DNA from: a virus
IMG/VR virus record: IMGVR_UViG_3300034682_000436
Span: 1 to 30,610 of that record
Length of the DNA stretch: 30,610 nt
Strand: one strand, 5' to 3'
Shown here one piece after another: positions 1 through 28,557 of the stretch (positions are counted from its first letter, which is position 1; every line of letters starts with the position of its first letter). The position numbers and the translations under genes were made by a program. The notes beneath the pieces are model-generated. The model made no database searches. It saw nothing but the letters and a program-made list of their open reading frames with translations, and had not been told where the DNA came from.

Positions 1-1011
1 ATGCTTAAATCAATTCAGTCTCTTAGGGGGATTGCTGCGTGGTTGGTTGTAGTTCATCACATTCATCAGATCATGCTTCCGTCTGGAGTCGGATATAAAT
101 ATATTGATTCTATTATCCTAAAATTTGCCTCTGGTGTTGATCTCTTTTTTGTTATTAGTGGCTTTATTATTTATAACAGCATAATTGGTTCAAGTTCTTC
201 CGCATTTATCTTTCTCGCTAAACGCTTGTGGCGCGTTGTTCCTTTATACTGGTTTTATACTTTTGTCGCCGTTATGGCAACCATGTTATTGCCAGGGATA
301 GTTCTGCAACCTAGTGTAGAAATTAACGAAGTGATAAAGAGTTTGCTTTTCATACCATACATGAACACGGAGTTCGGGGTTCATCTTCCTTTTTTAACAG
401 TAGGCTGGACCCTAAACTATGAAATGTATTTTTATGTTGCATCATTCTTTGCTTTGTTGATATCAAGAAAGAATTATTTGCTTATCATCTCTTTTTTAAT
501 AATCTCAATATCTTCTATTATCGCATGGGTTTCCAATGATGCTTCATTTTACGCTGACGGGGTAGTTAATGAGTTTTTGATAGGTGTTTTTGTAGGGTGG
601 CTTTATCGCTCTGGAATAATAAAAGGAATTAACTCAAAATTATGTTTATGGCTGATATTATTGGCATTGTGTTTCATATTGGCTTCGAATAGCTATCATG
701 ATTATATATCTGTAGGAATACCTTGTGGCGTTATAGTTTTATGTTTCTCTCTTAGTGAGAGCAGATTAAATGGAAGAAAGGTTGTTAAATATCTTTCCAT
801 CCTTGGTGACTGGTCTTATTCAACTTACTTATCTCATGTCTTAGTTATATGCATCGTGATGAGGGTTTATGAGGCTTATAGTTTAAATATAATTGCATGC
901 ATGATTGTTTCAGTGATAGTGACAGCTTTTGTTTCTTATTATACATTCAACGTCATAGAATCAAAGCGGATACCATATTTTAAAAAACGAACGCACCACA
1001 CTGCAAAATAA
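1..1011 (+). CDS. acyltransferase family 3 membrane protein (probable O-antigen acetylase)
   Basis: This is a 336-aa, strongly hydrophobic protein with about ten predicted membrane segments. It matches the acyltransferase-3 (OafA/Oac-like) family, which transfers acetyl groups to surface polysaccharide in the inner membrane. The family N-terminus is visible: LRG at residues 8-10, then a hydrophobic helix ending in His-His at 19-20, where the family's catalytic His lies, and the GVDLFFVISGF motif at 45-55. The ATG is the first base of the window. The protein begins just where family members normally begin, so it is probably complete, but its promoter is unseen. The gene is much more AT-rich than the virion genes and lies on the opposite strand just past the tail-fibre module. 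That is the usual place for lysogenic-conversion cargo such as O-antigen modification. The substrate is inferred, not shown. Confidence 0.88.
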   Translation: MLKSIQSLRGIAAWLVVVHHIHQIMLPSGVGYKYIDSIILKFASGVDLFFVISGFIIYNSIIGSSSSAFIFLAKRLWRVVPLYWFYTFVAVMATMLLPGIVLQPSVEINEVIKSLLFIPYMNTEFGVHLPFLTVGWTLNYEMYFYVASFFALLISRKNYLLIISFLIISISSIIAWVSNDASFYADGVVNEFLIGVFVGWLYRSGIIKGINSKLCLWLILLALCFILASNSYHDYISVGIPCGVIVLCFSLSESRLNGRKVVKYLSILGDWSYSTYLSHVLVICIVMRVYEAYSLNIIACMIVSVIVTAFVSYYTFNVIESKRIPYFKKRTHHTAK

Positions 1012-24666: not shown

Positions 24667-24689
24667 AAAAAAGCCCGCGACAGGCGGGC
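24667..24689 (-). terminator. terminator between tRNA array and lysis cassette
   Basis: On the minus strand GCCCGC pairs perfectly with GCGGGC around CTGTC and is followed by TTTTTT. It lies upstream of the holin gene. Only antiterminated (Q-modified) polymerase should read through to lysis genes, so it may back up the first late terminator and protect the lysogen from leaky lysis expression. The rest of the 24567-24746 gap holds the holin ribosome binding site and nothing else I can identify. Confidence 0.8.
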
Positions 24690-24746: not shown

Positions 24747-24784
24747 TGGTGCCGGGCAAAGGAATCGAACCTCTGACGCGCAGC
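24747..24784 (-). pseudogene. 3' half of a split tRNA gene
   Basis: The 38 bases match positions 39-76 of a tRNA: anticodon-stem 3' strand GCTGC, a five-base variable region, a T arm (AGAGG, TTCGATT, CCTTT), acceptor strand GCCCGGC, A73 and an encoded CCA. The stop codon of the HNH gene lies directly before it. The other half is found on the other side of that gene, so the tRNA gene was split by insertion. Confidence 0.72.
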
Positions 24785-25210
24785 TTATTTCCAGGTTTCG
24801 CCATTTAAGGCTGAAAGCACTGTTTGATGTGTTACACCAAACATTCTCCCTAGCCCTCTGGCTCCATAAACCTTATGACGTGGAATGTAGTTTTCTCTGA
24901 TGAACTGGACGCTGTCCATTGTTAGCTTACTCATACCATTCAGCTCACCAGCTACTAAGTAGCTAAGGTCAAATTTGGTTTTCTGAATGTGGCATGCAGA
25001 ACATAGTAGTTGGCACTTTTCAACCTCAGCATAAAACACCGAATCTGCGTGATAGTGCATCTCGCTTACATTTGCTGATTTGGTGGAAGGATCTATGTGG
25101 TCAAACTGAAGCGAATCTTTGGATCCGCAACTCGCGCAACGACCACCCAACTTTTCCATGGCCTTAGCAAGCCTAGCCCTTCGATTAAGATAGTAATCTT
25201 TGCTCGGCAT
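24785..25210 (-). CDS. HNH homing endonuclease inside a tRNA gene
   Basis: This 141-aa protein starts at the ATG at 25210; a longer frame to 25306 merely reads through tRNA sequence. It has an HNH domain with two zinc-binding Cys pairs (CASCG at residues 25-29, then FDHIDP, then CSACH), and the His of the active site in DHIDP. The C-terminal part ([23 protein letters not shown]) looks like a helix-turn-helix DNA-binding segment. Its ribosome binding site lies in the 5' tRNA fragment. Its stop codon abuts the 3' tRNA fragment. A free-standing homing endonuclease of this kind normally cuts an allele that lacks it and copies itself over. Its presence in a tRNA array is a sign of mobility. Confidence 0.8.
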
Positions 25211-25216
25211 TTTCCA

Positions 25217-25240
25217 CCTCTGCCACTGAACTAGACCGGC
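25217..25240 (-). pseudogene. 5' half of the split tRNA gene
   Basis: Five bases after tRNA-Gly, on the minus strand, the sequence GCCGGTC TA GTTC AGTGGCA GAGG reads as a tRNA acceptor 5' strand and D arm. Six of seven acceptor positions complement the GCCCGGC strand of the 3' half. The D stem is imperfect at its end, where the HNH gene begins. The spacing of five bases equals that between the two intact tRNAs. The anticodon arm is missing, so the identity is unknown. Confidence 0.62.
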
Positions 25241-25245
25241 GAATT

Positions 25246-25320
25246 TGGAGCATCTGGCGGGGATCGAACCCGCATCTTCTGGTTGGAAGCCAGACGTAAT
25301 TCCCAAACTACGACAGATGC
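25246..25320 (-). tRNA. tRNA-Gly (UCC)
   Basis: A complete 75-base cloverleaf with encoded CCA. The acceptor pairs GCATCTG with CAGATGC in all seven positions. The D arm is GTAG/TTAC, the anticodon stem TCTGG/CCAGA encloses CTTCCAA with anticodon TCC, and the T arm is GCGGG, TTCGATC, CCCGC. It reads GGA-type glycine codons. The D stem has a weak G-T pair. It is part of an array between Q and the lysis genes. Confidence 0.92.
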
Positions 25321-25325
25321 AGAAT

Positions 25326-25400
25326 TGGCGGGACAGGAAGGATTCGAACCTTCGACCATTCGGTTAACAGCCGAACGCACAACCGCTGTGCTTCTGACCC
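25326..25400 (-). tRNA. tRNA-Asn (GUU)
   Basis: A complete 75-base cloverleaf with encoded CCA. The anticodon stem TTCGG/CCGAA encloses CTGTTAA with anticodon GTT. The D stem GCAC/GTGC and T stem GAAGG/CCTTC are perfect. The acceptor pairs GGGTCAG with CTGTCCC except for one T-T mismatch at position 4-69. It is first of the array, five bases from tRNA-Gly. Confidence 0.92.
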
Positions 25401-25407
25401 TGAAACG

Positions 25408-25434
25408 AAAAAGCCCCGCACGATGGCGAGGCTT
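25408..25434 (-). terminator. late-leader terminator (tR'-like)
   Basis: On the minus strand a nine-pair stem (AAGCCTCGC with GCGGGGCTT, one G-U pair) encloses a six-base loop and runs into TTTTT. It lies between Q and the tRNA array, just after the candidate late promoter. This is where the lambdoid tR' lies; Q would antiterminate it. Confidence 0.82.
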
Positions 25435-25479
25435 CGAATTCATTCATGTTACACACAACACTGGCAACATATACGAATT

Positions 25480-25508
25480 ATTTTGCTCATTTGTTCATTA
25501 AATTGCAA
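25480..25508 (-). promoter_or_regulatory. candidate late promoter (pR'-like)
   Basis: On the minus strand TTGCAA (25503-25508) and CAAAAT (25480-25485) are separated by 17 bases and overlap the end of Q. Each hexamer matches four of six consensus positions, so the call depends on position: late promoters of lambdoid phages follow Q and precede a terminator, as here. No Q-binding element is recognised. Confidence 0.35.
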
Positions 25509-25995
25509 GCACGTTGTGTGATTTATTTGCAATTTTCATCACATTTTCGCGATCGTTAAACGCATTTTGCAGCGGCTGGTATAAACAGAACAGTGAAGCA
25601 TTGATGATTTGCTTCACCTCTCTGCGGATTGTCGAGATGCTTGGGTGTTTATACTGATTGCCGCCACGAGTCTTCATCAGGCGAGGCTTACTTACTGCAT
25701 GCTGCCATGATGCAATTCGGATCTCGCTGGAGTTGCAGACGTAGTAGGCGAAGATAACCCGCCAGGCATTTTCATCCACATTCTTCAGGTAGTGGCGAAT
25801 GACAGCATCAATGAGCATCCCGTCATCATCACTACATACCGGCCGTGATGCTTGCTGGGGCTCGACGGTAGCCATGAATCTGGCAATCATGTTGATCATC
25901 GCTTTATCAATCTTGCCGGTCTGGCACCATGCGCCCCACAACTGGAGCCACTGGTCTACCCATTGATGCTGGTCGTTGGTTAATTCCAGTTTCAT
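25498..25995 (-). CDS. Q: late antitermination protein Q (phage 21-like)
   Basis: This 165-aa protein resembles the phage 21/DLP12-type Q family: a start with WVDQWLQLWGAWCQTG, the conserved RPVCSDDDGMLIDAVI stretch at about residues 51-66, a helical centre, and a basic HTH-like end (KHPSISTIRREVKQIINASL). Q binds DNA at the late promoter, joins paused RNA polymerase and lets it read past terminators into the late genes. Its length is close to that of phage 21 Q, which fits the S21-like holin downstream. Its start overlaps the stop of a 38-aa gene (TAATG). No zinc motif is present, as expected for this type. Confidence 0.85.
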   Translation of the reverse strand: MKLELTNDQHQWVDQWLQLWGAWCQTGKIDKAMINMIARFMATVEPQQASRPVCSDDDGMLIDAVIRHYLKNVDENAWRVIFAYYVCNSSEIRIASWQHAVSKPRLMKTRGGNQYKHPSISTIRREVKQIINASLFCLYQPLQNAFNDRENVMKIANKSHNVLAI

Positions 25996-27401: not shown

Positions 27402-27568
27402 GCGGATTTTCTCCTCGCCGCGAGACGCAGCCATTTCTGATCCACCAGGCGGGCGGTGTAGTCTTTCAGTGTCGGGATGTCGGACGGCTTAACCACGGAC
27501 TTGCGCTGGCGGCGAGCCGGAACGCGGAAGATTTCGTTTGTGATGACGCGGGAAAGTGGGCTACTCAT
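27398..27568 (-). CDS. ninE: NinE-like small protein
   Basis: This 56-aa protein begins at the ATG at 27568 (GAGGG upstream). Its second half ([27 protein letters not shown]) resembles lambda NinE, which has a like pattern of Asp-x-x-T, YTAxLxDxxWLRxxAR at its C-terminus. It is basic, with Arg-rich ends, and might bind nucleic acid. Function is not known. The longer frame upstream to 27721 overlaps the HNH gene and is not coding-like. It overlaps both neighbours by four to eight bases. Confidence 0.72.
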
Positions 27569-28133
27569 TGCGCTCACCCTCAAATCGCCAGTTATACCCT
27601 TTATGGTAAGATGAGTGACCTGCGCAGCACCTGCTAATGCAGCCACTGTCGAACCCATCACGAACCGCATCCATAGCGGCAGCGTAGCGAACCTCTTTTC
27701 CTGTAACACGGCATGTGGCAATTACCGCTTTACTTGCGTTGTGATCCTCACCGAACCTACCGAGCTGATTTGGGATAACACCAAGATCGCTATAGGCATG
27801 GCGAAGATTGTTTGACGGAGTTGTCCATTCAAGGTTTTCAGCGCGGTTATCTTTTTTGTTGCCGTTTTTATGGTTAACAACTAATCCGTCGTCGTAACCG
27901 TCGCAAAATGCAATGGCGACAAGCCTGTGAGCTGCATACTTTTTGCCGCGAATCTTTATCTGAAGGTAACCAGTGGTATGCACGTCAAACGGCTTCAAGT
28001 CCTTACCTTCTAAAACCTTCTTGTAGCCACTCATCACGCTAACGGTGCGCGTTAAGGATCGGAATCGACCATAATTACTGACTTCATAATCGCTTGATAT
28101 AGAAGTTTTTTTCCAAATCTCTTCTTCAAACAT
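27561..28133 (-). CDS. NUMOD4-HNH homing endonuclease in nin region
   Basis: This 190-aa protein starts at ATG 28133 (AAGGA upstream). The N-terminal NUMOD4-like part (EIWKKTSISSDYEVSNYGRFRS) is followed by the HNH core (AAHRLVAIAFCDGY, VVNHKNGNKKDNRAENLEW) with the His-Asn motif, and a C-terminal NUMOD1-like part (AVIATCRVTGKEVRYAAAMDAV). These modules bind DNA and cut it. It lies between ninB and ninE, overlapping each by eight bases, so it uses their ends for its own ribosome binding and stop regions. It is probably a free-standing mobile gene that replaced genes between ninB and ninE. It differs from the HNH gene in the tRNA array and belongs to another subgroup. Confidence 0.85.
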   Translation of the reverse strand: MFEEEIWKKTSISSDYEVSNYGRFRSLTRTVSVMSGYKKVLEGKDLKPFDVHTTGYLQIKIRGKKYAAHRLVAIAFCDGYDDGLVVNHKNGNKKDNRAENLEWTTPSNNLRHAYSDLGVIPNQLGRFGEDHNASKAVIATCRVTGKEVRYAAAMDAVRDGFDSGCISRCCAGHSSYHKGYNWRFEGERNE

Positions 28134-28557
28134 GGTCGTGTCCTTTTGAGTGATATTCGGAGTTGGCCGGGATCCGCAATTTGATACCGCGTTCAGCACA
28201 CCAGACTTCAATACGGCGCAGGTAGAAGGTCATTTCTTCGGTGTCGAGTAGCTTGGTGGACTTCACCATCTTGGTTTCACCAAGAACGGTTACAGGCTTG
28301 GCGGGACAGAACATATCCTTCAGGAACTCGTGAAGGTCTTCTTCGGTTAACTTGCTTTCGGAGTAGTGGTTGACGGCAGATGCAACGTCGCTATTCCACA
28401 TCCAGAGAAGAGAATTTTGGGAGAGGCTGCGCTTGTCTTTCCAGGGCTTGATGATGAGGCGATAGCAGTCGCCAGATTCCAGCATTGGCTGTATCTGCTG
28501 CCCGATGGCGGAAAAGTTGGATTTGTGCAGACGGATGCCGTCTTTGTTCATGCTCAT
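28126..28557 (-). CDS. ninB: NinB-like recombination mediator protein
   Basis: This 143-aa protein resembles the NinB family: a start with LHKSNFSAIGQQIQPML, then the conserved KRSLSQNSLLWMWNSDVASAV and TEEMTFYLRRIEVWCAERGIKL. In lambda NinB (Orf) binds single-stranded DNA-binding protein and helps load recombinases. The HNH gene overlaps its end. The ATG overlaps the stop of the 31-aa peptide gene (ATGA). Divergent from lambda NinB, but the family is recognisable. Confidence 0.8.
   Translation of the reverse strand: MSMNKDGIRLHKSNFSAIGQQIQPMLESGDCYRLIIKPWKDKRSLSQNSLLWMWNSDVASAVNHYSESKLTEEDLHEFLKDMFCPAKPVTVLGETKMVKSTKLLDTEEMTFYLRRIEVWCAERGIKLRIPANSEYHSKGHDHV

Follow-up and report, generated by a model that had tools for sequence, protein, structure and literature searches.

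The late leader of this phage raises the question of whether an HNH endonuclease gene has split a tRNA gene and, if so, how the gene came to be there and what became of the tRNA. The window, that is, the whole 30,610-bp stretch analysed (virus record IMGVR_UViG_3300034682_000436), has a gene content that reads as a lambdoid prophage, including a Q antiterminator, a P21-type holin, a lysozyme, a portal, a terminase and NinG/NinI. Close to tail fibre genes, the edge of the window carries an O-acetyltransferase-like gene (1-1011, plus strand; phrog_3333, E 1e-51).

A tRNA-Thr gene split by an HNH gene

On the minus strand of the window, Q is followed by a terminator-like hairpin, tRNA-Asn, tRNA-Gly, the 5' half of a tRNA-Thr, a 7-nt leader, the HNH gene and the tRNA-Thr 3' half (Table 1). 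The original prediction of two intact tRNAs followed by a 5' half, all with 5-nt spacers, agreed with ARAGORN and Rfam, which both recognized tRNA-Asn and tRNA-Gly. It had also proposed comparing the junctions with relatives that keep the third tRNA intact. Enterobacter phage ENT1 is such a relative and provides the exact empty site, an Asn-Gly-Thr(TGT) array with the same neighbours and spacers in which tRNA-Thr is whole. E. coli EM18-18-42 has an Asn-Thr array, and intact relatives of the tRNA-Thr were also found in Hafnia phage Meifeng and E. coli ECCWS199.

Table 1. Features of the late leader in the window
Feature	Position	Strand	Basis
Gene Q, late antiterminator	25498..25995	-	Pfam Phage_antitermQ, E 1.4e-21
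Terminator-like hairpin in the late leader, upstream of the tRNA array	25410..25435	-	Consensus scan only
tRNA-Asn(GTT), intact	25326..25400	-	ARAGORN and Rfam
tRNA-Gly(TCC), intact	25246..25320	-	ARAGORN and Rfam
tRNA-Thr(UGU) 5' half, canonical positions 1-24	25218..25240	-	Identical to intact ENT1 tRNA-Thr up to position 23
430-nt insert, in place of tRNA positions 24/25 to 35	24788..25217	-	Comparison with ENT1
HNH endonuclease gene, 141 aa, TAA inside the tRNA anticodon loop	24785..25210	-	PF01844, phrog_4234, AlphaFold2
tRNA-Thr 3' half: U36-A37-A38, 3' anticodon-stem strand, variable loop, T arm, acceptor, CCA	24747..24787	-	41 nt identical to ENT1
Terminator-like hairpin 3' of the array	24673..24689	-	Consensus scan only

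Compared with ENT1, 430 bp stand in place of 12 nt (A24-G35) between position 23 and U36 in canonical tRNA numbering. Position 24 is G in the split allele and A in ENT1, and the insert length is counted from that G, which may have come with the insert or from a tRNA variant that has G there (3/84 intact contigs). The parts lost are the end of the D stem, the 5' anticodon strand and the first two anticodon bases. The predicted removal of the anticodon arm is too broad, as the 3' strand of its stem stays. Likewise, the HNH gene does end at a CCA-bearing 3' half, but its stop codon does not merely abut it; judged from intact ENT1, the TAA (24787-24785) is itself U36-A37-A38. The six of seven acceptor pairs noted earlier are also present, but they are no sign of insertion damage, since the intact tRNA has the same U6-C67 mismatch. 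The ribosome binding site that had been placed inside the D arm is a Shine-Dalgarno-like GAGGTG straddling the junction of D arm and insert.

In a tRNA prediction across the joined halves, as the original prediction had suggested, ARAGORN found no tRNA and called the empty allele tRNA-Thr(TGT). No tRNA was found at the window locus when introns of up to 500 nt were allowed. At a lowered threshold (-ps60), three calls appeared, one of which, a Leu call (404-499 of the scanned stretch), covered the 3' half and was taken as noise. The observation that an HNH gene splits a tRNA-Thr gene is therefore confirmed, and an empty allele with the same neighbours in public phages, together with 17 alleles sharing their junctions, places the insertion beyond chance.

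Population of alleles and fate of the tRNA

Viral alleles were collected with a search pattern built on the 3' half of tRNA-Thr, in which the sequence was fixed up to the T arm. The 3' half was found in 96 viral contigs, intact in 84 and HNH-split in 12, counted per contig with shared ancestry included, and some of these contigs may come from related isolates. The window, the 12 viral alleles and four E. coli prophages make up the 17 split alleles, all with identical junctions. A protein scan gave 12 viral loci with the HNH at 95-100% identity; phage records held only distant relatives (<60% identity), and the plasmids scanned for relatives of the HNH protein held none. The intact target tRNA-Thr was present in 0/12 HNH carriers and 3/3 controls, all counted in records that may be fragments.

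Among 5,426 complete E. coli genomes, the whole HNH gene was present in four and only its first 93 nt in two. In the latter two prophages (L022 and L023, 1501-1593), the 93 nt are joined to a different late region, one that has a lambda-type holin. This remnant is an inactivated allele.

Indels at the acceptor or CCA end were present in 11/17 split and 0/84 intact alleles, a comparison in which only the last bases were free to vary under the pattern (Fisher 8e-11, a test that ignores shared ancestry). Eight split alleles had lost acceptor bases, three had a CCA indel, two had point changes, and four, including the window, were unchanged. Point changes occur in intact genes too, with 10/84 tails differing at the acceptor or T-stem end, and hence they carry no weight as evidence. 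Because the indels separate split from intact alleles in this way, it is well supported that the split tRNA-Thr is a decaying pseudogene with no foldable tRNA left, which bears out the earlier suggestion that the tRNA is probably dead.

Origin and spread of the insert

The product of the HNH gene matches PF01844 above the cut-off (24.3 bits) and, over residues 11-84, the phrog_4234 profile (E 2e-22). Among the key residues of the HNH motif, D37 and H38 were invariant or nearly so across 19 relatives, along with H74 and the C25/C28/C66/C70 set. In the AlphaFold2 model built on 19 sequences (mean pLDDT 80.6, pTM 0.54), a helix at the N terminus precedes the strand-strand-helix core, and a linker that is poorly predicted (83-93) leads to a helical domain at the C terminus. 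Residues 62-141 share 41% identity with a Kuravirus HNH protein whose nuclease domain belongs to other families, and owing to this likeness of the C-terminal half, the protein may represent a swap of DNA-binding domains. A comparison with solved structures gave one match by sequence (E 0.33), none by fold at E <= 0.001 and no named relative. The HNH frame is open in 17/17 split alleles, with a pN/pS of about 0.25 (pS 0.057, pN 0.014; 8 distinct sequences of close relatives, 30 variable sites). A hairpin at the ribosome site, of the type known from T4 endonuclease genes, was rejected after four folds of the 5' half and start region proved no better than shuffles (z -1.39 to 0.38). The nin region of the window contains a second HNH gene (27561-28211, minus strand; phrog_59, E 7e-38; C-terminal HTH-type match), whose product is unrelated to the 141-aa protein by BLASTP.

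The locus is probably best explained by an intronless, free-standing HNH homing endonuclease gene inserted in the tRNA-Thr(UGU) of the late-leader array of lambdoid phages. From the alleles compared, the insertion itself is well supported, and homing at tRNA-Thr likely. The enzyme would bind and cut intact tRNA-Thr genes around the common anticodon-region sequence GCCTTGTAAG. The cut target would be a co-infecting phage or a resident prophage, into which repair would copy the HNH allele, and carriers would be immune because the insert destroys its own site. The HNH gene has its Shine-Dalgarno-like site across the D-arm junction and takes its stop codon from U36-A37-A38; the Q-controlled promoter would drive its late transcription together with that of the tRNAs. 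With the phage tRNA dispensable, an intron or splicing would be unneeded. After insertion the 3' half decays while the endonuclease gene remains open.

Three split alleles (L002, L012, L020) and the truncated L022 and L023 have a different tRNA 5' half. Among the 120 matches listed in a pattern scan, this half belongs to another phage tRNA-Thr(UGU), 119 with an intact anticodon region and one with the HNH gene; among these listed matches, the intact region reads GCCTTGTAAG in 110 and GACTTGTAATC in 9 of 119. In these alleles the left junction lies in the same D-arm motif, GGYAGAG, while the sequence from the 3' half into the right flank is that of the first lineage. The join could have come from break repair in the second tRNA or from a rare crossover.

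The flanks are mosaic. At a 90% threshold, the flanks of the 17 split alleles form 9 groups on the left and 7 on the right, and several flank backgrounds carry the same HNH sequence (types H1 and H2). The intact alleles used as a control (74/84 with full flanks) form 36 groups on the left and 29 on the right, which combine in 52 ways. Mosaic flanks were weakened as proof of homing by this control; since the intact alleles are themselves mosaic, spread across backgrounds needs no homing. Nuclease genes have been described as marking exchange boundaries in phages (excerpt of PMC10448857). Against the empty allele L054, the left flank has 0 mismatches in the nearest 100 nt and about 5% beyond 500 nt, and the right flank differs at once. 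As the near part holds the tRNAs, constraint on these may account for the identity next to the insert.

The original idea of homing into an anticodon region fits in that the insert ends in the anticodon loop, no carrier keeps the target and a second lineage was entered, although ordinary recombination could also spread the allele. A single illegitimate insertion of the HNH gene that then spread by ordinary lambdoid module exchange only is in fact the most serious alternative, yet we regard it as unlikely. The identical junctions point to one origin, the 52 flank combinations among 74 intact alleles show how mosaic the locus is and count against homing, and one rare crossover in the short D-arm match could account for the second-lineage join. 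Such exchange fits poorly with a frame that stays unbroken in 17/17 alleles at a pN/pS of 0.25 while the tRNA end decays in 11/17, with identical HNH sequences on different flanks, and with relatives that recur in tRNA arrays. Homing is further suggested by exact empty sites within the same array (of 96 alleles, 84 are intact and 12 split), by two tRNA-Thr(UGU) lineages with a common anticodon region that appear to have been entered at the same D-arm motif, and by an HNH protein with a C-terminal helical domain. It also agrees with the relatives in tRNA arrays of many viruses, where three filled/empty comparisons show mobile insertion beside or in tRNAs.

The minority status of the HNH allele (12/96) speaks against homing, and also against the idea that the insert is kept because tRNA loss or the nuclease benefits the phage, for example by excluding rival phages. 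This idea is very improbable, even with phage tRNAs that can be anti-defence genes and a homing enzyme, SegB, that cuts inside tRNA genes (excerpt of PMC13096335). Hardly credible at all is an insert that is an intron, or halves that join in trans, so that the tRNA is still made. Both halves are recognisable and the 3' end is unchanged in 4/17 alleles, but the 12 missing nt include two anticodon bases, GCAGC of the lost stem strand does not occur in the insert, 423/430 insert bases are coding, Rfam detects no intron, and split 3' ends decay. ARAGORN finds no tRNA with introns of up to 500 nt or across the joined halves, and neither there nor at the locus is there a complete tRNA of the kind regenerated by integrases at tRNA sites.

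Known systems and relatives in other tRNA arrays

Group I introns sit in tRNA anticodon loops. They have invaded tRNA genes (excerpt of PMC3984707) and likewise place mobile endonuclease DNA near the anticodon, whereas the window insert has no ribozyme or splicing and part of the tRNA is lost. Other parallels are two free-standing HNH genes that have likewise inserted into and split a phage gene with no intron involved, MobE within nrdA (Aeromonas phage Aeh1) and MobA within gene 60 of T4 (excerpt of PMC2988022). In those cases the pieces of the protein come together again (shown for NrdA), whereas tRNA-Thr is not restored here. A homing endonuclease in a phage tRNA array is also known from T4 SegB, between tRNA-Arg and tRNA-Ile (excerpt of PMC2988022), whose cuts fall inside tRNA genes and which spreads the tRNA region (excerpt of PMC13096335). 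SegB is a GIY-YIG enzyme that lies between tRNAs and carries them along, whereas the HNH gene here splits one. HNH genes have been reported in tRNA arrays of mycobacteriophages and others (excerpts of PMC5966550 and PMC6409571). In the open-licence literature, as far as its accessible text extends and with most subscription papers outside its scope, we found no report of a phage tRNA gene being split by an endonuclease gene.

The locus offers a clear example from nature of a non-coding gene killed by a selfish endonuclease without an intron, and the exact before and after alleles are found in prophages of E. coli and phages of Enterobacter. The split and intact alleles offer a direct test of whether HNH enzymes of tRNA arrays target tRNA DNA, and hence of why phage tRNA sets turn over. 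Phage tRNAs have been linked to escape from host defences that cut tRNAs (excerpt of PMC13096335), so an element that removes them may alter phage-host outcomes.

The phrog_4234 HNH genes in tRNA arrays share the nuclease domain and the kind of neighbourhood of the window HNH. We surveyed 102 loci, comprising 12 window-type and 67 further viral loci (the best 80 of 261, one without a complete frame being dropped), 16 genome contigs and 7 phage records (of 236 with a match). At 80% identity they form 70 clusters, 46 with a tRNA in the surveyed DNA and 24 with none. A tRNA starts at most 50 nt after the HNH stop in 32/70 clusters and overlaps the stop in 22/70. This overlap (at least 3 nt) was rejected as a family hallmark, as other ORFs near tRNAs in the same loci show it in 17/47 cases. 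In Mendera it follows from plain insertion between tRNAs.

None of the three filled/empty pairs compared has a split tRNA next to the HNH gene as in the window; the tRNA there is either kept or replaced. Mendera differs from Marzo by a clean HNH insertion between tRNA-Lys and tRNA-Arg, the latter altered in two end bases only. In Escherichia phage JohannJBalmer (L243, 1501-1935), compared with HNH-free phi92 and ALITA (L343, L344), the first two thirds or so of the downstream tRNA-Lys are replaced and the 3' end is identical, as though a replacement 5' part had come with the element. In Mycobacterium phage Crossroads (L245, 1474-1903), the adjoining tRNA-Leu differs throughout from that of HNH-free Bazzle and Tourach (L345, L346), and the next tRNA-His is nearly identical.

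We suggest only tentatively, as a possibility that may well prove wrong, that the phrog_4234-type HNH enzymes form a family specialised in entering the tRNA genes of viruses by homing, with the conserved anticodon-region DNA as the sequence they read, so that a single enzyme could reach different tRNA gene lineages. Some would swap in a recoded, cut-proof tRNA (JohannJBalmer tRNA-Lys, Crossroads tRNA-Leu), and the lambdoid lineage would destroy its target. If this is true, viral tRNA arrays are shaped by enzymes that cut tRNA genes.

Among the surveyed loci, an orphan tRNA 3' half right after the HNH stop was found only in the window-type loci and, with some uncertainty, in L311. L267 was rejected as a further split tRNA, having a T arm only, far downstream of the HNH stop. 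In L311 (1897-2420), the acceptor strand of the orphan half pairs 7/7 with the start of a whole tRNA-Phe that precedes the HNH gene, and this locus is a candidate for a second independent split tRNA.
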